DNA of 64,000 nt. Origin: an uncultured bacterium (GTDB lineage Bacteria > Bipolaricaulota > Bipolaricaulia > UBA7950 > UBA9294). The notes under the pieces were generated by a model. The model saw nothing but the letters and a program-made list of their open reading frames with translations, was not told the origin of the DNA and made no database searches. Made by a program: the position numbers and the translations under genes. The stretch is taken from assembly GCA_903857865.1 (NCBI GenBank), contig CAIOGO010000020.1, positions 169,064 through 233,063 of the forward strand, in the 5' to 3' direction. Positions within the stretch are counted from its first letter, which is position 1. Each line of letters opens with the position of its first letter. Positions 26,123 to 39,696 of the stretch are shown one piece after another.

Positions 26123-26288
26123 CTAGTTCCCAAACGCGAACCTTCCTTCGGAGAAGAGCCGGAGACAGGTCTCGACGACCTGGGAGTCGTAGAGCTCCCC
26201 CTCGCCTTCTGACACAGTCGCCAAGGCTCTGTCGATCCCGAGAGCTGGGCGGTTATGGCCGGTGCGACGCCATTGCCTCGACGACATC
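26123..26288 (-). pseudogene. Decayed C-terminal remnant of an HD-GYP gene
   Basis: On the minus strand DVVEAMASHRP (26288 down to about 26256) is followed, after a +1 frame change, by NRPALGIDRALATVSEGEGE and LYDSQVVETCLRLF up to a stop at 26123. This is the end of an HD-GYP domain closely similar to those at 24615 and 26358. One extra A in the Tyr codon (TAAC for TAC) explains the frameshift. Nothing of the HD motif region is left upstream, because the 5' end of the intact HD-GYP gene of the opposite strand begins there. Confidence 0.75.
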
Positions 26289-26357
26289 GACCTCACTCGG
26301 GCCATGGCGGGCGGATGTTGGCATGGAGAGAAACGCAGGCATACTGATGATGGGGTG

Positions 26358-29213
26358 ATGGGCATGCGCAGAGGCGCTAAGTCCCCCAAGCCTGAGGACT
26401 GGGAGGACACCTATCGAACGCTGGTCGAGAACTCGCTTCAAGGACTCGTCATCTTCCAGGATGGCCGCGTCGTCCTTGCCAACTCCGCTGTCTCGGATCT
26501 CCTCGGGTACACGCATGACGAAATGCTTGCCTTCTCCGCCGAAGAGCAGGCCGATCTGATTCACTCGGACGACCGGGAGCGGGTTCTCGAGCGGATGCAA
26601 AGGAGACTGACTGGAGAGCCGCTCCCCAGAACAGGGGAGTTCCGCCTCCTCCATAGGACTGGATCCACGGTCTGGGTCCAAGCGTTGGCGCGGCGGATCG
26701 AGTTCCGTGGCCGTCCGGCGATCCAGTCGGTGTACCTTGACGTCACGGAGGAGGTTGAGGCGAGAGAGCGTCTCCGACGCACCACGCGCGCCCTCACGGC
26801 GCTGTGGCACTGCAACGAGGCGCTCCAGCGCGCTGACGAGGAGACGGAGATGCTCCAGCAAGCCTGCCACTGCCTCGTCAAGGACAGCGGCTACACGTTG
26901 GCATGGGTGGGATACGCCGAGGATGATCCGGAGAAAACGATTCGCCCCGTCGCTGAGTCTGGGTTCGAGCGAGGGTATCCGGGCGCGATCACCGTTCGCT
27001 GGGGTGACGATGAGTACGCCGGGGGGCCTTCAGGCAAGGCGGTTCGGAACGGGACACCGTCCATCTGCCACGACACGATGACCGATCCCGAGTTCGAGCC
27101 GTGGCGAGAGCAAGCTCGGAGATACGGCTACAGGTCCTCGATCGCGCTCCCTCTCAAGACGGACGACCGTGTGTTCGGCGTTCTTAGTCTCTACGCGTCG
27201 GCGCCGGATGCGTTTGACGAAGAGGAGGCTCGACTCTTGGAGCGACTCGCCGCCGATCTCTCGTACGGGATACTGGGAATGCGCAGACGAAACACGCTAC
27301 GTGAATCGGAGGAGCGCTACCGCGTTCTGGTCGAGGCGTCTCCCGACGCCATTGCGCAGACTGACTTGGATGGGCGTATCGTCGCCGCCAACCGCCAGAT
27401 GGCGGGGATTCACGGCTACGAGGAGGCGCAGGATCTGATCGGGAAAGACGCCGTCGACCTCTTCGCGGAGGAAGAGCGACAGCACGCGCGCGTCACCATG
27501 GAGAAGGTGCTCGAGTCTGGGGGGATCAGGGATGTCGCGCACACGCTTCTAAGAGCCGATGGGACGCGTATTCCCGGGGAGCTGAGCGCCTCAGTGATTC
27601 GGGACTCGAGTGCAAGACCGATCGGCCTCATGGCCATCATCAGGGATGTGACAGAGCACAAGAAGGCACAAGACGCCTTGGCGGAGAGCGAGCTGAAGTA
27701 TCGCACACTGGTGGAGACTGCAAGCGAAGGGATCGCCGTAATCAAGGACGGGCGGCTTGTCTTTGTCAACCCCGCGACCTCTGTGCTGGCCGGCGTCTCT
27801 AGCGAGGAACTCCTTGCTAGGCCATTCATCAACTTCGTCCACCCCGACGATCGGAGCATGGTTCTCGAGCGGCACCAGGCGCGTATGAGGGGGGAGGAGG
27901 TGCCGAGCGTGTACGTATTCCGGGTCGCCCGCGGAGACGGCGCCATTCGGTGGGCAGAAGTGAAGGCCGTCCGAGTTGACTGGCAGGGGGAGCCCGCGAC
28001 TCTGAACCTTCTGAGCGACATCACCGAACGCAGACAGGCGGAGTTGGAGCGTGAGCGCCTCCTCAGAGAGCAGGTCGCCGTGAGCCAGCTCGCCCTCGCC
28101 TTGGGGGAGACACTGGACCTGGGTGAGATCTACCAGAGGCTGTATGACCGCGTGCGCACTCTGATCGATGCGGAGGGGTTCATCGTCTCATCCTACGACC
28201 CCGAGAACAAGCTCATCCGGGCGGAGTTCCTCATCTCCGAGGGGATCCGTCACGACACGAGCGGCTTCCCGCTCATTCCGCTTGAGGAGGAGGGTTGCGG
28301 GACACAGAGCCGGGTCATCCGGACCGGCGAACCGCTGTATCTGCCGGACTTCCGCGAGGCGATGACACAGACAAGGAGCCAGTACACGTTCGACGAGAAA
28401 GGTTCCGTTGTCGAAGGGCCTCCGCCGCCCGGCGCGGAGGAGACCTCGACGAATTCCGCGCTCCTCGTGCCACTGAGAGTTGCGGGGAAGACGATTGGGG
28501 TCCTTCAGCTCCAGAGCAACCAGCGGGACGCCTACACGGAAGAGGCGAAGAACCTTCTCTGCGGCCTAGCGAACGTCGCGGCGGTCGCGATCCAGAACGC
28601 GCAGCTCTACAGGACGATCGAGAAGGCGCTCGAGACCACGATCCAGACCCTGGGGCTGACGACAGAGACGCGCGACCCGTATACCGCCGGCCATCAGCGA
28701 CGGGTGGCGGATCTCGCCTGCGCCATCGCGAAGGAGATGCATGCTGAGGAACAGTCGATCCGCGGGATCCGCGCCGCCAGCCTAGTCCACGACATCGGGA
28801 AGCTCTCTATCCCGGCTGAGATCCTGAGCAGACCGTCCGCGCTGACGCCTCTCGAGTTCGGCCTTGTGAAGGCGCACCCTCAGACTGCCTACGACATCCT
28901 CAAAGGGATCGTCTTCCCCTGGCCGGTGGTGGAGATGGTCCTACAGCACCACGAGCGCCTGGACGGCTCGGGGTACCCGCAAGGGCTCAGGGGTAACGCG
29001 ATCCTACTTGGGGCGAGGATCCTCGCCGTGGCTGACGTCGTCGAGGCGATGGCCTCCCACCGCCCCTATCGCCCCGCGCTCGGTGTGGACAAGGCGCTGG
29101 CGGAGTTGGAGGCGGGAGCGGGCGTGCTGTACGACTCCGAGGTCGTTGGGGCGTGCCGTCAGCTGTTCCAGGCAGGGTACTCGCTCTCTTCGCCACCATC
29201 AGAGGCCCAATGA
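26358..29213 (+). CDS. Multi-PAS/GAF HD-GYP phosphodiesterase
   Basis: 951 residues, no membrane segment. Order: PAS (about 20-135, SVYLDVTEEVE end), GAF (about 155-310), PAS (about 320-435), PAS (about 440-560, LSDITERRQ end), GAF (about 580-755, including FPLIPLEEEGCGTQSRVIRT), HD-GYP (about 760-940). HD-GYP motifs are complete: AGHQRRVADLACAIAKEMHA, HDIGKLSIPAEIL, HHERLDGSGYPQGL. Expected to hydrolyse c-di-GMP under control of several small-molecule or redox signals. The start is uncertain between ATG 26358 and 26364; the frame is open to 26262 but that part overlaps the HD-GYP remnant. GAF-HD-GYP portion is closely similar to that of the next gene. Confidence 0.87.
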   Translation: MGMRRGAKSPKPEDWEDTYRTLVENSLQGLVIFQDGRVVLANSAVSDLLGYTHDEMLAFSAEEQADLIHSDDRERVLERMQRRLTGEPLPRTGEFRLLHRTGSTVWVQALARRIEFRGRPAIQSVYLDVTEEVEARERLRRTTRALTALWHCNEALQRADEETEMLQQACHCLVKDSGYTLAWVGYAEDDPEKTIRPVAESGFERGYPGAITVRWGDDEYAGGPSGKAVRNGTPSICHDTMTDPEFEPWREQARRYGYRSSIALPLKTDDRVFGVLSLYASAPDAFDEEEARLLERLAADLSYGILGMRRRNTLRESEERYRVLVEASPDAIAQTDLDGRIVAANRQMAGIHGYEEAQDLIGKDAVDLFAEEERQHARVTMEKVLESGGIRDVAHTLLRADGTRIPGELSASVIRDSSARPIGLMAIIRDVTEHKKAQDALAESELKYRTLVETASEGIAVIKDGRLVFVNPATSVLAGVSSEELLARPFINFVHPDDRSMVLERHQARMRGEEVPSVYVFRVARGDGAIRWAEVKAVRVDWQGEPATLNLLSDITERRQAELERERLLREQVAVSQLALALGETLDLGEIYQRLYDRVRTLIDAEGFIVSSYDPENKLIRAEFLISEGIRHDTSGFPLIPLEEEGCGTQSRVIRTGEPLYLPDFREAMTQTRSQYTFDEKGSVVEGPPPPGAEETSTNSALLVPLRVAGKTIGVLQLQSNQRDAYTEEAKNLLCGLANVAAVAIQNAQLYRTIEKALETTIQTLGLTTETRDPYTAGHQRRVADLACAIAKEMHAEEQSIRGIRAASLVHDIGKLSIPAEILSRPSALTPLEFGLVKAHPQTAYDILKGIVFPWPVVEMVLQHHERLDGSGYPQGLRGNAILLGARILAVADVVEAMASHRPYRPALGVDKALAELEAGAGVLYDSEVVGACRQLFQAGYSLSSPPSEAQ

Positions 29214-29342: not shown

Positions 29343-32300
29343 GTGATCAAGGACCTTCTATCCTCCAGGACGATCAAACGAGCCGCCCTGATTGTGGGGT
29401 GCTACCTGGCCCTGTATGCGCTGCTCGATTGTGCAAGCCTGATATTCCGGACCGATCCCGTTGCGTCCATCTGGTATCTGTCGGACGGGCTCAGCCTGGC
29501 ACTGTTGCTTGTCTTCGGGGTTCGCTATGCGCCTGCGATTGTCTTCTCAGCGCTCATCACCAACTTCGTCTTCTTCCCGAATCCTGCGCCGGCAGCCATC
29601 ATGGTGGCCTGGTCCATCATCTTCCCTCTGCCCTTTGCCGCGACCGCAACCCTGCTGCGCCACAAGTTGCGGGTTGAAGTCCCACCGCGCCACTTGCGTG
29701 ACGTGGCTTTCCTCATCCTTGGCTGCCTGGTGCTCTCGCTGACCCTGGCGGGAGTGTTTATCCTGACCGTCCTTTTCTCCAAGGGTGCTATGCCATCCGC
29801 GCAGGCTGCCTTCGCCGAGTGGCCGGCAGTGGCCTTCCGCTGGTGGATTGGCGAGGCGATCGGACTGGTTCTCGTAACCCCGCTGGTCTTACTCACGGTG
29901 GCCCCGTGGCTCAAGGCGCGCCTGGGTTCTCTGCAGCGGCGAACAAGGCCCCGACCGCCGGTGGCTATCCGGTCGATCGCCGAAGCATCGGCGCAGCTGT
30001 TGAGCATTGCCATCGTGGTGACGGGTGTCTTTGGGACGGGAGGCGCCAGCGGCCTGCCCTTCTTCTACCTGTGTTTCCTGCCCCTCGTCTGGATCACACT
30101 CCGTCATGGCTTGCGAGGCGCTACCCTGGCGATCGCGCTGATCGACACGGGCGCCATCCTGATGGCGCACTTCTCCGGTTTTCCCTTCGACCATATCGCC
30201 GACCTGCAGATCTTCATGCTGACCCTGGGACTGACCGGCCTGACCCTGGGTGCGGTGGTGGATGAGCAACGCGAGTCCGAGACGCAAAGCCGCCGCCGCG
30301 CCGGAGAATTGGCCGCGGAGCGGGACTTCCGGGAAGCCGTGCTGCAGACGGCCCAGGTCACGGTCCTCATCCTCGACTCGGCGGGGCGCATCGTGCGATT
30401 CAATCGTCACTTCGAAGAGCTCTCCGGTGTCTCCCTCGAGGAGGCCAGAGGCAGAGACTGGTTCGAGACCTTCCTGCCTAAGGAAGAACAAGCTCGCATT
30501 CGCACGCTGTTCACCGGCGCCCTTGCCGGCCAGCAGACGCGAGGCAGTGTCAATCCGATTGTCATACGGAATGGGGAGTACCGATGGTTGGAGTGGTACG
30601 ACAAGACACTCACGCACGACTCCGGCGAGGTCACGCTGGTATGTATCGGCGTGGACGTGACCGAGAAGAGGAGGATGCTGCGACAGCAAGCATTGGTCGC
30701 CGAGACTCTCGTCATCCTCAATCGACCCAACGAGTGGAAGAATCTGATCATTGACATCCTGGAGGCCATCCAGGCGTCGACTGGCGTGGAAGCGGTCGCC
30801 ATCCGGCTGGAGCACGCGGGGGACTTCCCGTACGCTGCCGTTCGCGGCTTCCCGCCCGAGTTCGTAGCTATCGAGACGAGCCTCGTCGACTGCGACGCAG
30901 CGGGCCGTCCGAAGCGCGACGCGCAAGGTGGCAAAGAGCTCGCCTGCATGTGCGGAAACGTGATCTGCGGGCGCACCGATCCCGCGTTCCCGTTCTTCAC
31001 GGAGGGGGGAAGCTTCTGGACCAACAGCACGACTCAGCTCCTCGCGTCGACGACTGGGAAGGAGCGACAGTCGGCAACGCGGGATCAGTGCAACGCCTTC
31101 GGCTACGAATCCGTGGCTCTGATCCCTGTCCGCGCCAACGGCAACACGATCGGCCTTCTCCAACTCAATGACCGTCGCACGGACCGGTTCAGTGCAGAGA
31201 TGATTCAGTTCTTCGAGGAATTGAGCGCCAGCATTGGCGTCGCGTTCAAACGACAACAGGCCGAGGAGCGGTATCGGTCGCTGTTTGAGCGAAACATGGC
31301 TGGGGTCTACACCACAGCGATGGATGGACGGTTCATCGCGTGCAACAGAGCGTTCTCCGACATGTTGGGCTTCGCCTCGCCAGACGAGGTTCTGTCGCTT
31401 CATGCCTCGGAGTTGTACTTCAATGCCGCTGACCGTGAAGAGTTCCTCGGGGGGCTGCACGCGGCGGGGGAAATCGTTGGCAAGGAGTGTCGTCTTCGGC
31501 GCAAGGACGGACAGCCGATCTGGGTTGTCGAGAGCGCTTCCCTCATCCAGACGGGGAGTGGGGGCGAAACGACGCTGCAGGGGACTGTCGTTGATGTGAC
31601 GCAGCTGCGAGAGACGAAAGTGGCGTTGGACGAGAACGAGGCGAAATATCGTCAGCTCGTGGAGAACCTCAACGACGTGATCTTCACCGTCGATCTCGCG
31701 GGGATGATCACGTACGTCAGCGAGCCGGTACGCCAACTCGCCGGCTATGCACCCGAGGAGCTGGTCGGGCATCCGTTCCGCGAGATCATCCACCCCGACG
31801 ATGTCCCAGACCTTGACCGCCGCTTCCGCGGGGTCCTGGAGAACCGCCTCGAACCTTGGGACTTCCGGTATCGCACCAAGGACAGGGAGATCCGATGGGC
31901 ACGCACGTCGAGTCGCCCCATCGTAGAGAGCGGCCGCCCGGTTGGCATCCGAGGCATGCTTTCCGACATCACCGACCGCAAACAGGCGGAGCAGAAGATC
32001 GCAGCCCTGGCGCGCTTTCCAGCCGAGAACCCCAGCCCAGTCCTGCGAGTGGAGGAAAGCGGGAAGATCGTCTATGCCAACCCCGTAGGCGAATCGCTCT
32101 TGCACTTCAGAGCGGGCGAGTATCTGCCCCCAGACTGGCACGAAGAGCTCGTCAGTGCTGTGAGAGACCACGCTCGCAGAACTGCAGACCTCAACATGGG
32201 AGAGCAGGTCTACTCGGTCACGTTCGCACCAATCCCCCACGCCGGTTACGTCAATGTCTACGCGATGGACGTCACCAAGCGCAAGCATGGAGAAGCGGAG

Positions 32301-33467
32301 CGCAATCGTCTCCTCGCTCGCCAGGTCACGCTGAACCGTGTCACGCTCGCCCTCGGCGCGTTGACGGAGCTGCCAGCCGTGCTCCGCACGCTGTACGGCG
32401 AGGTTCGGACCCTCCTCGATGCCGACGGGTTCTTCGCCTCGAGGTATTACAAGGACACGCAGCTCATCACCGCCTTGTTTGCGATCGACGAGGGTGGGGA
32501 ACGCGACGTCTCGACCTTCCCCCCCATTCCGCTTGCGCCGGAGGGAAAGGGGATGCAGAGCCAAGTCTTGCGAACTGGCAAACCCCTCAACGTCCCCGAC
32601 TGGCTCGAGGGAGAACGCAGGATGCAGACCGTGCACCACCTGGCGCCCGATGGCACGTTCACCCCGCCGCCGCCGGAGACCGAACGCGACGACTGCACGA
32701 AGTCGGCGCTCCTCGTTCCCCTCTTGTTCCGGGGCGAACCGATCGGCGTACTCCAGGTGCAATCCAACCGACTGAACGCCTATTCGGACGAGGACGTGGA
32801 CCTCCTCGCCGGCCTGGCCAACGTGGCCGCGATCTCCATCCAGAATTCGCTGCTGCTCGCCGAGGCCGAGCAGGCCGAGCGTGTTCTGCGCCTCAGCCTC
32901 GAAGGGACGCTGCACGCGGTCAGCGCAGCCGCGGAGACGCGCGATCCGTATACGGCCGGGCACCAGCGGCGGGTCACCGCCCTCGCGGTCACCATCGCCC
33001 GCGAGCTCGGGCTCTCGGACGACGAGTGCAACACGCTACGCATCGCAGGAACAGTCCACGATATCGGGAAGCTCGGCATCCCGGCGGAGATCCTGTCCAA
33101 GCCCGGCCCACTGTCTGCGATCGAGCTTGACCTCATCCGCGAGCACCCTCAGACAGCGTACAAGATCCTCGCGGATGTGCCGTTCCCCGGCCCGGTGGCG
33201 GAAATCGTCCTGCAACACCACGAGCGTCTGGATGGCAGTGGGTATCCTCGCGCCCTCGCGGGAGACCAGATGTTTCGCGAGGCGCGCATCCTCGCTGTCG
33301 CCGACGTCGTCGAAGCGATGGCCTCGCATCGACCGTACCGCGCGGCGCGCAGCATCGACGCCGCTCTCGGCGAGATCGAACAGAATGCCGGGCGCCTCTA
33401 CGACTCCGAGGCCGTAGAGGCCTGCATCCGTCTCTTCCGCGACAAGGGCTACGCCCTCCCCGCGTGA
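29343..33467 (+). CDS. MASE1-PAS/GAF-HD-GYP membrane sensor phosphodiesterase
   Basis: 1374 residues. The N-terminal ~300 residues form a MASE1-type membrane sensor with about eight helices (SIWYLSDGLSLALLLVFG is a characteristic segment). Then PAS (about 320-440), GAF (about 455-635), PAS (about 640-755), PAS (about 765-880), a short PAS-like part (about 885-980), GAF (about 995-1175) and HD-GYP (about 1185-1370) with HDIGKLGIPAEIL and HHERLDGSGYP. Integrates membrane and cytosolic signals to degrade c-di-GMP. Start GTG 29343 lacks a strong ribosome binding site. The last third resembles the upstream HD-GYP protein, pointing to a duplication. Confidence 0.87.
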   Translation: MIKDLLSSRTIKRAALIVGCYLALYALLDCASLIFRTDPVASIWYLSDGLSLALLLVFGVRYAPAIVFSALITNFVFFPNPAPAAIMVAWSIIFPLPFAATATLLRHKLRVEVPPRHLRDVAFLILGCLVLSLTLAGVFILTVLFSKGAMPSAQAAFAEWPAVAFRWWIGEAIGLVLVTPLVLLTVAPWLKARLGSLQRRTRPRPPVAIRSIAEASAQLLSIAIVVTGVFGTGGASGLPFFYLCFLPLVWITLRHGLRGATLAIALIDTGAILMAHFSGFPFDHIADLQIFMLTLGLTGLTLGAVVDEQRESETQSRRRAGELAAERDFREAVLQTAQVTVLILDSAGRIVRFNRHFEELSGVSLEEARGRDWFETFLPKEEQARIRTLFTGALAGQQTRGSVNPIVIRNGEYRWLEWYDKTLTHDSGEVTLVCIGVDVTEKRRMLRQQALVAETLVILNRPNEWKNLIIDILEAIQASTGVEAVAIRLEHAGDFPYAAVRGFPPEFVAIETSLVDCDAAGRPKRDAQGGKELACMCGNVICGRTDPAFPFFTEGGSFWTNSTTQLLASTTGKERQSATRDQCNAFGYESVALIPVRANGNTIGLLQLNDRRTDRFSAEMIQFFEELSASIGVAFKRQQAEERYRSLFERNMAGVYTTAMDGRFIACNRAFSDMLGFASPDEVLSLHASELYFNAADREEFLGGLHAAGEIVGKECRLRRKDGQPIWVVESASLIQTGSGGETTLQGTVVDVTQLRETKVALDENEAKYRQLVENLNDVIFTVDLAGMITYVSEPVRQLAGYAPEELVGHPFREIIHPDDVPDLDRRFRGVLENRLEPWDFRYRTKDREIRWARTSSRPIVESGRPVGIRGMLSDITDRKQAEQKIAALARFPAENPSPVLRVEESGKIVYANPVGESLLHFRAGEYLPPDWHEELVSAVRDHARRTADLNMGEQVYSVTFAPIPHAGYVNVYAMDVTKRKHGEAERNRLLARQVTLNRVTLALGALTELPAVLRTLYGEVRTLLDADGFFASRYYKDTQLITALFAIDEGGERDVSTFPPIPLAPEGKGMQSQVLRTGKPLNVPDWLEGERRMQTVHHLAPDGTFTPPPPETERDDCTKSALLVPLLFRGEPIGVLQVQSNRLNAYSDEDVDLLAGLANVAAISIQNSLLLAEAEQAERVLRLSLEGTLHAVSAAAETRDPYTAGHQRRVTALAVTIARELGLSDDECNTLRIAGTVHDIGKLGIPAEILSKPGPLSAIELDLIREHPQTAYKILADVPFPGPVAEIVLQHHERLDGSGYPRALAGDQMFREARILAVADVVEAMASHRPYRAARSIDAALGEIEQNAGRLYDSEAVEACIRLFRDKGYALPA

Positions 33468-35450: not shown

Positions 35451-35912
35451 CTAGTTCGTCGTCGCGGTGTACTGAATCACCAGGTTGTAGCTGCCCTGGG
35501 GAACGCTCGCCAGGTCCTCGGCCGACAGCGTCAGCGCGTAGGACACGTTGATGTCGGAGACTCCCCACGCGCCAGAGGTCCGGTCGAACGACCGTCCCAA
35601 CGCCGCATCCAGCACGACCTGGCTAGCCCCGGTGGGTAGCGTGGACGTCGCCCACAAGATCGTGTTCGATAGCGACCAACTCGCCGTGCTTAGCACGCGG
35701 AGCTTGGTCCCGTTCGAGCCCGCGTAGGTGCCGGGGCCGGTGACGTTCGGGAAGCTGACGTCGCCGCTGCCGACGATCGACAGGGAGATCCACGACGGGA
35801 CGACAAACGATGCGTTCACAGATACGGCCGACTGGGCCGCCCAGCCGGCCACCGCCGTCCCCATGACCATGCCAACAACGGCCAACAAACCCACGAACTT
35901 CCTCATCCTCAT
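35451..35912 (-). CDS. Small secreted protein under c-di-GMP riboswitch control
   Basis: 153 residues, family not recognised. A signal peptide (RKFVGLLAVVGMVMGTAVAG, cleavage near GWA-AQ) is followed by a Ser/Thr/Val-rich, cysteine-free beta pattern ending YNLVIQYTATTN, resembling secreted beta-sandwich adhesin or coat-type modules. ATG 35912 has GGAGG with 7-nt spacing; an in-frame ATG ten codons upstream is less likely. The leader carries a GEMM-I riboswitch, so a surface, attachment or motility-to-sessility role is a reasonable inference. Confidence 0.75.
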   Translation of the reverse strand: MRMRKFVGLLAVVGMVMGTAVAGWAAQSAVSVNASFVVPSWISLSIVGSGDVSFPNVTGPGTYAGSNGTKLRVLSTASWSLSNTILWATSTLPTGASQVVLDAALGRSFDRTSGAWGVSDINVSYALTLSAEDLASVPQGSYNLVIQYTATTN

Positions 35913-35938
35913 TGAAACACCTCCACGGTTCGTCGAGC

Positions 35939-36049
35939 GCATCTAGCGGCTCGGCCACCATCAGGCCGCGGGCTAGACCTGCCCGCGCCACCCGGAAGGT
36001 CCGTAGCTTTGCGTCCCGCCCTTTCGAACGGTTTGCCTTGGATAGATGC
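35939..36049 (-). promoter_or_regulatory. c-di-GMP-I (GEMM-I) riboswitch
   Basis: Read on the minus strand, 36037 to 35966 shows the GEMM-I core in order: GGCAAACC, a GTTC-GAAA-GGGC tetraloop hairpin, GGGACGCAAAGC, then an arm with GACCT ... AGGTC and TAGCCCGCGG. This matches the Vc2-class consensus closely, including the GAAA tetraloop and the invariant GGGACGCAAAGC. GCATCTA (36049-36043) can close the structure with TAGATGC (35945-35939). The ribosome binding site of the secreted-protein gene lies 15 nt beyond, which suggests control of translation or of a nearby structure (GGCC/GGCC stem around 35950). Confidence 0.87.
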
Positions 36050-36333
36050 TTCTCCGAGGATCGCTTTGTGGTATCGCAGCGGACCGCCCGCTACGATCTC
36101 GCTCGGATACCGATCCGAGACGTTGGCAGCTTAGCACGGGAACCGTTGGATGTCTGTGGTCCACATCACCGCGGCCAGGTCCAAGAAAGGGACACACGCG
36201 GCACGCCGACCGCGCCATCGTCCCCATCGCGGCGCCTCGTGGAAGCGATGATCTTCGCGACGATCGGCATCGTCGGCGTGCGCCACCCTGCGAGGGCTGC
36301 GCGCCTTGCGTTGCCGACGGTGGGAGGTTGCTC
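36050..36333. other. Intergenic stretch between riboswitch and histidine kinase
   Basis: About 285 nt that must hold divergent promoters. An in-frame open stretch precedes the kinase start but shows no domain. I see no convincing -35/-10 pair. Confidence 0.4.
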
Positions 36334-37983
36334 ATGGAGGAGGCGCGAGCTCGCGGCGGCATGGTCGACGATTCGACCGGCACGTCCCCGCGCGCCACAG
36401 CGAGTGGGACCACCGGGTCGGTCGAGGGACTGCAGGACGTCCTCGCGCGCATCGGGACGGCCCTCTACGTCGTCAACGCGGAGACCGAGGAGTACGCCGC
36501 CTTCAGCCCGATGTACACGACGCTCCTCGGCTACACGCTGGAAGATGTCGCCGCCCACGGCGGCCGGAGGCTCTTCCTCCAGCATCTGATCCTGAGCGAT
36601 GAGGTCGAGGAGAAGACACACGGCTTCTCGCGCATTCAGGACGGGCAGGCCGCGGCATCGATCCGCGAGCATCGCATCTGGTGTCGCCACAAGGACGGTT
36701 CGCTCCGCTACATGGAGGATCACTGGATTCCTGAGTACGCCGACGGCCGCCTCGTGCGCACCTACGGCATCCTCCGCGACATCACCGCGCAGAAGGAGAC
36801 CGAGGACGCCCTCGTCGAGACGGAAGGCACGTACCGCACGCTGTTCGACAGCGTCGCTGACCCAATCGTGATCTTCGAGAAGCAGACGAACAGAATCCTC
36901 GACTGCAACCAAGCGATGCTGCCGAGGTTCGGGTATTCGCTCGCCGAGCTGAGGTCGCTGACGCCGCTCGACTTGGTCGCGCCCGGCGAGACGAAGGCGG
37001 CGGCGGAGAAGAACATCGACGACGAAGACGACACCAGCGCTCACGAGTACATCTTCCTCACCAAGGCCGGACAGGAGATCCCTGTGGAGACTCACACCGC
37101 CGACGTGCGCTATCGGGGCCAGGACGCCTGGATCACGATCCTGCGCGACATCACCGAGCGCCGCGAGGCCGCAGAGCGCGCGAAGCGCTACACGGCGGAG
37201 ATCGAGGCCGCAAACGAGGAGATCAAGCAGTTCGCCTACATCGTGTCCCACGACCTGCGCGCCCCGCTCGTGAACCTGCGCGGCTTCTCCGCCGAGCTGC
37301 GCCGCGCGCTGGACGGAGTTCTCCCCCTGGCGCGGCAGGCCGTGGAGGCTCTGCCCGCGGCCGACCAGCGCGTTGCCCACGACTCGATCGAGGAGGACAT
37401 CCCTGAAGCGCTGGGTTTCATCGACTCCTCGGTGACGCGCATGGATTCGTTCATCAACGCCGTCCTCAAGCTGTCGCGCATCGGCCGTCGGGAACTCGCC
37501 TATCGGCCCCTCGACCCGCGCCCGCTCGTCGAGGAGATCCTGCGAACTCTAGCGCACCAGCAGGCGGCGCACGACGCCACGGTGACGGTCGCCGATCTCC
37601 CCCAAGTGACCGCCGACCGAACAGCCTTGGAGCAGATCTTCGGCAATCTGCTGGCGAACGCCCTCCTGTACTTGGTTCCCGGTCGGCCCGGGAGGATCGA
37701 GGTTGGCGGCGCGCGCGGCAAGACCGAGACGACGTTCTGGGTGCGCGACAACGGGCGCGGAATTGCCGCCGAGGACGCCGACAAGGTCTTTGCGCCGTTC
37801 CGCCGGGCGGGGAAGCAGGACGTGCCCGGCGAGGGAATGGGACTATCCTACGTACACACCATGGTCCGCCAGCACGGGGGCCGCATCTGGTTCGAGTCGA
37901 CGCCCGACGTGGGCACGACGTTCTTCTTCACTCTCTCGCATTCCCTTGGTGACCAAGGAGGAAGCCATGCCGAACGGCCATGA
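36334..37983 (+). CDS. PAS-PAS histidine kinase
   Basis: 549 residues, no membrane helix. PAS 1 (about 30-155, ends RDITAQKE), PAS 2 (about 160-280, ends RDITERRE), a HisKA-type dimerisation domain with the phospho-acceptor box IVSHDLRAPLVNLRGF (about 305), and a HATPase domain (about 430-540) with N-box IFGNLLANALLYL, G1 DNGRGIAAED and G2 GEGMGLSYVH. GGGAGG with 6-nt spacing supports ATG 36334. It overlaps the response regulator gene by 17 nt and heads a three-gene signalling operon that ends in a diguanylate cyclase. Confidence 0.9.
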   Translation: MEEARARGGMVDDSTGTSPRATASGTTGSVEGLQDVLARIGTALYVVNAETEEYAAFSPMYTTLLGYTLEDVAAHGGRRLFLQHLILSDEVEEKTHGFSRIQDGQAAASIREHRIWCRHKDGSLRYMEDHWIPEYADGRLVRTYGILRDITAQKETEDALVETEGTYRTLFDSVADPIVIFEKQTNRILDCNQAMLPRFGYSLAELRSLTPLDLVAPGETKAAAEKNIDDEDDTSAHEYIFLTKAGQEIPVETHTADVRYRGQDAWITILRDITERREAAERAKRYTAEIEAANEEIKQFAYIVSHDLRAPLVNLRGFSAELRRALDGVLPLARQAVEALPAADQRVAHDSIEEDIPEALGFIDSSVTRMDSFINAVLKLSRIGRRELAYRPLDPRPLVEEILRTLAHQQAAHDATVTVADLPQVTADRTALEQIFGNLLANALLYLVPGRPGRIEVGGARGKTETTFWVRDNGRGIAAEDADKVFAPFRRAGKQDVPGEGMGLSYVHTMVRQHGGRIWFESTPDVGTTFFFTLSHSLGDQGGSHAERP

Positions 37984-38413
37984 GGTCAGCATTCTCATCG
38001 TCGAAGACGACCCCGGGCACGCCCGCCTGATCGAGAAGAACCTCAAGCGGTCGAACATCACCAACTCCGTGACCGCCGTGTCGGACGGCCAGCAGGCGCT
38101 TGACTTCCTGTTCGGGACGGGCGCGTTTGCCGGGAAGGAGCTGCCCGCCCAGCTCCTCGTCCTCCTCGACCTCAACATGCCGGTTCTCGACGGCTACCAG
38201 GTCCTCGAGCGGATGAAGGCGGACCCGCGCACGAAGCGGATCCCCGTCATCATCCTGACGACGACCGATGACCCGCGAGAAGTGGCCCGCTGCTACGAGC
38301 TCGGCTGCAACGTCTACATCACCAAGCCGGTGGACTACGTGAAGTTCGCCGACGCGATCGCCAAGTTGGGACTTCTCTTGTCGATCGTGGCGGTCCCGGG
38401 TGGGAAGGCATGA
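37967..38413 (+). CDS. Single-domain response regulator (Rcp1-like)
   Basis: 148 residues, one receiver domain: acidic pocket IVEDDPGH near residue 12, phospho-acceptor in LLDLNMPVLDGY (about 70), Thr in ILTTTDD and Lys in ITKPVDY. No output domain. AAGGAGG precedes ATG 37967 inside the kinase gene. Likely takes phosphate from the kinase and relays it, or competes with the receiver domain of the next gene, with which it overlaps by ATGA. Confidence 0.92.
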   Translation: MPNGHEVSILIVEDDPGHARLIEKNLKRSNITNSVTAVSDGQQALDFLFGTGAFAGKELPAQLLVLLDLNMPVLDGYQVLERMKADPRTKRIPVIILTTTDDPREVARCYELGCNVYITKPVDYVKFADAIAKLGLLLSIVAVPGGKA

Positions 38414-39696
38414 CCGCGCCCGAGACGACCCTCCGCCTGCTATACATGGAAGACGACCCCGGACTCGGCCGCCTGGTGCAGAAGAGGTTAGGGCGCGAGA
38501 GCTGGTCGGTCGACCTGGCCGAAGACGGCGAGCGTGGGCTGGCCCTGTTCGCCGAGGGTGCGCACGACGTCCTCCTCCTCGACCACGACATGCCGGTGCT
38601 CAGCGGCCTTCGCGTCATCGAACGCCTCGCGTCCGAAAACCGGTTGCCTCCGACGATCATGCTCACGGGCGCCGGCAACGAGCAGACGGCGGTCGAGGCG
38701 ATGAAGCTCGGCGTCGGCGACTACCTCATCAAGGACGCCGCCGGGGCGTACCTCGAACTCCTGCCGTCCGTCATTCGGCGCGTCATGGAGCACCATCGCC
38801 TGGAGGACGAAAAGGCGGCGGCCGAGGAAGCGCTGCGCGCGAGTGAGGCGCGCTTCCGCACCGTGGCGGAGACGGCGGCTGACGCGATCATCTGCTCCGA
38901 TCGCGCAGATCGCGTGTTCCTCTGGAACCGAGGGGCGGAACGGATGTTCGGCTACACGGAGAGCGAGGCGCTCGGGATGAGCACCCGCATCCTCTTCTCC
39001 GATCCCGCCGGCGCGCCGCTGACGAAGGGCACGAAGCCCGCGCGCTTCGACAGCCGCGGCTGCCGCAAGGACGGCGCGCTCTTCCCCGTCGAGGTGTCCG
39101 TCACGGATTGGGCGACCCAGCATGAGACACACCACACGACCATCGTCCGCGACGTCAGCGAGCGCAAGGAGTACGAGGAGAAGCTCGCCTACATGGCTCA
39201 CCACGACTCGCTGACCGGGGTCTTCAATCGCCACCACCTGAGCGCCGTGCTCGAGACGGAGACCGCGCGCGCCGAGCGGTACAAGCATCCGATCGGGTTC
39301 CTGATGATCGACGTCAACCGATTCAAGATGATCAACGACACCCTCGGGCACCGAACCGGAGACCTCGTGGTGCAGGCGATGGCCGACGTCCTCCTCAAGG
39401 CCGTGCGGCGAGCGGACCTCGTCTTCCGCTACGGCGGCGACGAGTTCCTCATCGTCCTCCCCGAGACGGATGGCAGTACGCGGTTCGTCAAGGATCACAT
39501 CCTCGCGGCCCTCGAACAGTGGAACAAGGCGAGCGACCTCCTCGACTTCGACGTCACCCTCTCGATCGGTGTCGCACACTGGGCGCCCGGCTGTGGAAAG
39601 AGCACAGACGAGGCGCTGAACGAGGCCGACGCAGCCATGTACCGCGAGAAACGCGCAAGCGCGATGCAGGATGCCGGCGGCGCGTCGGTCGCATAG
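38410..39696 (+). CDS. Receiver-PAS-GGDEF response regulator (diguanylate cyclase)
   Basis: 428 residues. Receiver domain (1-125): MEDDPGLG, phospho-acceptor Asp in LLLDHDMPVLSG, ITxxLTG/A switch as IMLTGAG, Lys in LIKDAAG. PAS (about 145-260, ends RDVSERKE), GGDEF (about 265-420) with YGGDEFL and RRAD at the inhibitory-site position. Start ATG 38410 overlaps the previous stop (ATGA). Phosphorylation by the kinase encoded two genes upstream should control c-di-GMP synthesis; the riboswitch gene divergent to this operon is a possible target. Confidence 0.92.
   Translation: MTAPETTLRLLYMEDDPGLGRLVQKRLGRESWSVDLAEDGERGLALFAEGAHDVLLLDHDMPVLSGLRVIERLASENRLPPTIMLTGAGNEQTAVEAMKLGVGDYLIKDAAGAYLELLPSVIRRVMEHHRLEDEKAAAEEALRASEARFRTVAETAADAIICSDRADRVFLWNRGAERMFGYTESEALGMSTRILFSDPAGAPLTKGTKPARFDSRGCRKDGALFPVEVSVTDWATQHETHHTTIVRDVSERKEYEEKLAYMAHHDSLTGVFNRHHLSAVLETETARAERYKHPIGFLMIDVNRFKMINDTLGHRTGDLVVQAMADVLLKAVRRADLVFRYGGDEFLIVLPETDGSTRFVKDHILAALEQWNKASDLLDFDVTLSIGVAHWAPGCGKSTDEALNEADAAMYREKRASAMQDAGGASVA

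Follow-up and report, generated by a model that had tools for sequence, protein, structure and literature searches.

Which signal is read by the leader of a small secreted-protein gene in an uncultured member of Candidatus Bipolaricaulota, and how this signal could reach translation, are the questions raised by the 64,000-nucleotide stretch of DNA analysed here (contig CAIOGO010000020.1; hereinafter, the window). A first-pass annotation, made from the letters alone, had placed a near-consensus GEMM-I (c-di-GMP-I) aptamer in front of this gene and proposed to search 35930-36060 of the minus strand with the corresponding covariance model.

The aptamer in the window

The search returned an above-threshold aptamer at 35941-36046 (minus strand) and thereby confirmed the annotation. 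RF01051 (c-di-GMP-I) matched with 57.5 bits against a gathering threshold of 35, which places the element in this family, and RF03167 matched the same interval with 59.1 bits against 59 (E 2.1e-11 over 64 kb). Across the 64-kb window the c-di-GMP-I aptamer was the only Rfam match above threshold. Model R1, built from spliced outer aptamers (see below), gave 83.5 bits at 35938-36050; the window aptamer is of this outer type and is followed by the start codon 28 nt further on. The parts of the leader and its gene are as follows.

36043-36049, minus strand: P1 5' strand GCAUCUA, partner of 35939-35945; outer P1 is 100% paired in alignment A2, with UA<->CG changes
35939-35945, minus strand: P1 3' strand UAGAUGC (A2 structure test)
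36016-36031, minus strand: P2 hairpin CCGUUC-GAAA-GGGCGG with GAAA tetraloop (sequence and A2 helix 2)
35998-36007, minus strand: P3 5' strand GCUACGGACC (RF03167 alignment and A2 tests)
35949-35959, minus strand: P3 3' strand GGUGGCCGAGC (RF03167 alignment); relatives place its counterpart beyond the inner aptamer
35968-35986, minus strand: GC hairpin GCGGGC-AGGUCUA-GCCCGC (sequence and A2), at the site of the relatives' inner aptamer
35957-35965, minus strand: putative anti-SD strand CCUGAUGGU, shared with P3; 2.3 expected pairs, weaker than in nested relatives
35920-35929, minus strand: ACCGUGGAGG, anti-SD partner and Shine-Dalgarno (SD) GGAGG (sequence; SD accessibility computed)
35451-35912, minus strand: gene of P0001, a 153-aa secreted protein of predicted beta-sandwich fold, ATG at 35912, stop at 35451 (ORF translation)

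The bases read from the sequence at the ligand contacts are G20, A47 and C92, which we take to be the ordinary c-di-GMP set in Vc2 numbering. The best match carries the label of a 'GGC variant', and another ligand was considered on that account; it was rejected, as position 47 is A and RF01051 scores well over its own threshold. Judged by its sequence, the window leader is a genuine c-di-GMP riboswitch aptamer, which presumably binds this ligand.

A nested double aptamer in related leaders

Homologues of P0001 occur in the phylum, and aptamers, usually two, lie upstream of nearly all of them. The pair has a peculiar layout: the 5' half of aptamer 1 (P1, P2 and the P3 5' strand) is followed by a complete aptamer 2 and only then by the 3' half of aptamer 1, the distal GGUGGCCGAGCCGC-UAGAUGC, which supplies the P3 and P1 strands. 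Searching for this distal half revealed the arrangement in families f1, f3, f4, f5 and f7, with at least 38 nested leaders in 26 genomes, including the leader of a paralogue in the source genome itself (L002 on contig C9). Wherever the gene behind a leader could be read, it belonged to one family of small secreted proteins, that of P0001. The aligned set comprised 37 distinct nested leaders and the window copy; a further nested leader, L232, was kept outside it. A pattern scan of genome contigs listed at least 116 loci, among which nested cores from outside the phylum were sought; the records with nested cores were those of Bipolaricaulota, save L131 and L178 (the latter labelled uncultured bacterium). 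It should be added that L131 (JAJRTG010000045.1) is labelled Neomarinimicrobiota and is probably a mislabelled Bipolaricaulota.

Two further observations were made on these loci. L113, L148, L178 and L217 carry two or three consecutive P0001-family genes, with a separate nested double aptamer for each of them, and the inner P3 loops of L148, L178, L220, L224, L091 and L092 contain long GGGTTC/GAACC-rich inserts resembling mobile repeats.

Such a pair could also be read as two ordinary aptamers in series, each closed locally, with the distal GGUGGCCGAG..UAGAUGC acting solely as expression platform. True tandems do exist in the phylum (L045, G060), and Rfam itself reports a nested pair as two neighbouring matches, the 5' one with 32-47 bits. 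The alignment argues against this reading. For the full nested structure, 93.9% of cells in A2 were paired, 144 cells had two-sided changes against 41.7 in shuffles (0 of 500) and at most 41 when the structure was slid, and covariation was 0.307 against at most 0.082 when slid. The distal pairing of outer P1 and P3 is kept by compensatory changes that occur in step: UA, CG and UG occur at one and the same pair of P1, all 27 leaders with 5' CGGACC have CCG distally, and the distal sequence is CAG or ACG in each of the 11 leaders in which one base is deleted. A local partner for P1 is, by eye, not evident.

Furthermore, the flanks of the inner aptamer form a helix, here termed P3ext, which brackets it and whose sequence differs wholly between lineages while the pairing is kept (UAGGCAG/CUGCCUA, UAGAC/GUCUA, AGGUAUG/CGUACCU, CUAAGAG/CUCUUAG and GGGCUGC/GCAGCCU). 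In an exact permutation of nine lineage representatives, the cognate P3ext pairing was the best of 362,880, and in the same test the anti-SD pairing was reached by 96 and that of P1 by 456; the sequences are related, so these counts are not strict probabilities, and the tests nevertheless agree. In L232, P1, P3, P3ext and the anti-SD helix all pair despite base changes. When canonical single aptamers were scored, a covariance model of the spliced outer halves exceeded one built with the local 3' sequence by 7.4 bits on average, and was higher in 31 of 33. RNAalifold recovered P2 and most of P3 from the spliced outer halves and missed P1, because the alignment had misplaced the P1 5' strand. 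Moreover, the window copy and L031, from another genome, are single aptamers in which the two halves found in the nested leaders are joined, scoring 59-62 bits.

Two complete aptamers with local P1 and P3 of their own were thus found in neither case: the window has one aptamer, and the relatives pair around the inner one. The ordinary tandem pair was rejected on the distal covariation, and we regard it as very improbable. As judged by covariation, aptamer 2 is nested inside aptamer 1. A whole second aptamer lies between the P3 strands in L002 and 37 other leaders; in the window copy, the outer halves are joined via the GC hairpin at 35968-35986. Since this hairpin stands at the inner-aptamer site, the window leader is a one-aptamer form, either a derivative or a parallel simple version of the nested design, its inner aptamer having been lost or never acquired. 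The first-pass annotation had the order of aptamer and gene right and overlooked the conserved nested design of the relatives.

Elements upstream of the aptamer

A 10-bp inverted repeat precedes the window leader and is recurrent in its own GTDB family.

36073-36097, minus strand: inverted repeat ATCGTAGCGG-GCGGT-CCGCTGCGAT

Most family-f1 leaders have a near-perfect repeat of the type ATTGCAGCGG-n3-5-CCGCTGCAAT 20-30 nt 5' of P1, possibly an operator or a 5' RNA hairpin. A conserved CCTCA (window 36055-36061; A2 columns 11-16) precedes outer P1 by about 12 nt in nearly all leaders; it may be a pairing partner of the SD or indicate where transcription begins.

Predicted switching mechanism

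Just 5' of the distal P3 strand, the strand CCUAAUGGU has its complement in ACCAUUAGG, a sequence that abuts the SD or extends into it; 93.5% of the cells are paired. The helix of family f3 stops just short of the SD. Sequence comparison shows this anti-SD helix to be conserved. Its 5' strand shares nucleotides with P3ext and the tip of P3, so the anti-SD helix and outer P3/P3ext would be mutually exclusive. Unliganded partition functions gave 3-12 expected pairs for the anti-SD helix and near zero for outer P1/P3 in 36 of 37 nested leaders. With the outer aptamer forced, SD accessibility rose only from a mean of 0.16 to one of 0.39; the corresponding values for the window copy were 0.04 (free) and 0.41. 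Calculated without ligand and tertiary terms, the forced fold had a mean energy cost of about 17 kcal/mol, against 8 kcal/mol for the window copy. In a subgroup of tandem paralogues (L113c, L138b, L148c, L192b and L220) the forced outer aptamer lowered SD accessibility, in several of them on account of a 5' CCUC able to base-pair with the SD.

We propose the following sequence of events for the common form, in which a complete second aptamer within stem P3 of the first is closed by P3ext. At low c-di-GMP, CCUAAUGGU would pair with ACCAUUAGG at the SD, blocking outer P3 and keeping translation off. Once the inner aptamer has bound c-di-GMP, the two outer halves would be brought together, whereupon the outer aptamer could bind a second c-di-GMP, complete P3/P3ext and P1 and free the SD, turning translation ON. 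Two ligands acting in series would make the response sharp and cooperative. The window copy, with a permanent GC hairpin in place of the inner aptamer, would be the one-ligand version. Ligand binding, cooperativity and the need for two ligands in the nested form and one in the window form are what we infer from these folds.

That c-di-GMP turns translation ON is the most likely sign and the weakest step of the model; it is deduced from unliganded folds, which form the anti-SD helix and not the outer aptamer. The opposite sign would follow, with or without nesting, if P1, formed upon ligand binding, brought the conserved 5' CCUC beside the GAGG of the SD and masked it. This accords with the conservation of CCUCA at its distance from P1, with 2.5-3.8 CCUC-SD pairs in one subgroup when the outer aptamer is forced, and with the precedent of Vc2, a translational OFF switch (PMC9262584). 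The masking helix would, however, have four pairs only and is near zero in most leaders, and in many family-f1 leaders an AT-rich, -10-like stretch precedes CCTCA, which may lie at the transcription start. An OFF switch is accordingly held to be unlikely, and the ON sign is retained below.

The secreted output protein and other aptamer targets

P0001 had been described as a 153-residue secreted beta-rich protein without recognised family, and this description holds: its N-terminus resembles a signal peptide (about residues 1-26), neither Pfam nor NCBIfam has a curated family for it, and a beta-sandwich is predicted. Complete members of the family are small secreted proteins of 139-177 aa. Structure prediction, which had been suggested for this protein, gave an immunoglobulin-like sandwich resembling donor-strand-exchange pilins and TasA/TLP fibres (AlphaFold, pLDDT 82.9), with a low-confidence N-terminal segment after the signal peptide. 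Among the best fold neighbours in Foldseek and VIA-align were TLP-1a/b, the PapG pilin domain, CsuA/B, FimG and TasA, with Z of 7.5 for 9ikj/9ikk, 7.0 for PapG pilin, 6.7 for CsuA/B and 6.0 for TasA; these fibre-protein matches are modest (Z at most 7.5), and eukaryotic PapD-like/MSP domains are similar. Sequence profiles gave no significant match to TasA/TLP or chaperone-usher pilins, the only hit being 9ikk with E 0.39, and no paper on TLP-1 was found in the literature searched.

The source genome has seven aptamer matches in six leaders, with the following targets.

P0001 of the window: one aptamer
Paralogue on contig C9, 68% identical to P0001: two aptamers (leader L002, nested)
1847-aa protein with 14 cadherin/Big_9 repeats (L015 1929-7472, minus strand; genome C20 near 164.4 kb): c-di-GMP-I aptamer in leader
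PKD-repeat secreted protein: aptamer in leader
109-aa protein with only a weak DUF4388 match: aptamer in leader
673-aa secreted protein: aptamer in leader

A third, more distant P0001 paralogue, at C20:235244, stands in a locus free of aptamers. It adjoins a secreted protein (L016 4078-5235, minus strand) that looks chaperone-like by eye and has nothing above cut-off in Pfam; the gene pair recurs in L035 and possibly includes an assembly factor. Across the phylum, 94 of 100 Bipolaricaulota genomes have c-di-GMP-I-type aptamers.

The annotation had also called P0001 a likely c-di-GMP-regulated surface factor. A role at the surface is plausible: fibre and pilus subunits have folds similar to the predicted one, and large secreted or adhesin-like proteins make up most of the genome's other aptamer targets. 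The most likely role of the family, as suggested by the models, is that of a donor-strand fibre subunit. Alternatively, the protein could be secreted to act singly, as an adhesin or matrix component that forms no polymer. This would agree with there being no recognised usher or chaperone adjoining the window gene and with Z values that common beta-sandwich arrangements also reach. Most of the top-scoring bacterial neighbours in fold are nevertheless fibre subunits and pilins, and a low-confidence segment behind the signal peptide is as expected of a free donor strand, so that we consider the lone adhesin rather doubtful and prefer the fibre subunit. Taken as a whole, the leader is quite probably a c-di-GMP-I translational ON switch whose design was encountered here in Bipolaricaulota alone, and its output is a small secreted subunit, probably of a pilus- or TasA-like fibre.

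Neighbouring genes

The kinase, regulator and GGDEF genes reported for the opposite strand were verified by Pfam domain matches.

36046-37983, strand opposite to P0001: PAS histidine kinase (ORF)
37991-38413, strand opposite to P0001: receiver protein
38410-39696, strand opposite to P0001: receiver-PAS-GGDEF protein
26262-29213 and 29343-33467, strand opposite to P0001: two large PAS/GAF/HD_5 (HD-GYP-type) proteins

The listed start of the kinase ORF (36046) overlaps the aptamer in antisense, and its true start is probably downstream. An 'island' linking synthesis, degradation and output of the messenger, as had been suggested, did not survive comparison: by tblastn, these neighbours are absent from 21 of 22 related loci. 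A single GGDEF match, on L231, was the exception; this short contig had been included on the strength of a weak pattern match with two mismatches, and no P0001-family gene was shown on it. As the neighbours fail to recur, we regard the 'c-di-GMP island' as a local adjacency that is not conserved.

Comparison with known systems and significance

With c-di-GMP-I (GEMM-I; RF01051/RF03167) riboswitches the leader shares the three-stem aptamer, the GAAA tetraloop, G20/A47/C92 and above-threshold scores; it differs from the canonical form in that the outer P3 loop houses a whole second aptamer (relatives) or a GC hairpin (window). Tandem c-di-GMP-I riboswitches, of which a review counts 347 doublets and 12 triplets (PMC9481103; see also Bc3-5 RNA, PMC4759541), likewise place a pair of same-ligand aptamers ahead of a single gene. 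Unlike these, the nested aptamers are not in series: a single shared expression platform belongs to the outer aptamer, whose folding depends on strands flanking the inner one. The glycine riboswitch (two aptamers, one platform; PMC5666159) also sets two like aptamers jointly before one gene, but side by side, whereas in the nested leaders one lies within the other. Contiguous riboswitches are treated in PMC12452182; the word 'nested' is absent from both this paper and PMC9481103. No nested riboswitch was found in the literature searched, which consisted mainly of open papers and is weak evidence of absence. Surveys counting neighbouring Rfam matches would class nested pairs as tandems. As for the output, P0001 resembles donor-strand-exchange fibres and pilins (TasA 8aur, TLP-1a/b 9ikj/9ikk, PapG, CsuA/B, FimG) in its predicted immunoglobulin-like sandwich with a free N-terminal segment, and differs from them in having neither a significant sequence match nor recognised assembly machinery at the window gene.

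It is probable that a natural riboswitch, conserved in five Bipolaricaulota families, has one complete aptamer inserted into a stem of a second one with the same ligand; its two sites would act cooperatively to turn ON a fibre subunit specific to the phylum, and the window copy would be one of its single-site derivatives. Known multi-aptamer riboswitches hold their sensors in a row; nesting would make the folding of one sensor physically depend on the other and may be a simple route to cooperative, switch-like control, testable and open to copying in synthetic RNA. For this uncultured phylum, the leaders point at candidate output genes of c-di-GMP, apparently encoding surface fibres.
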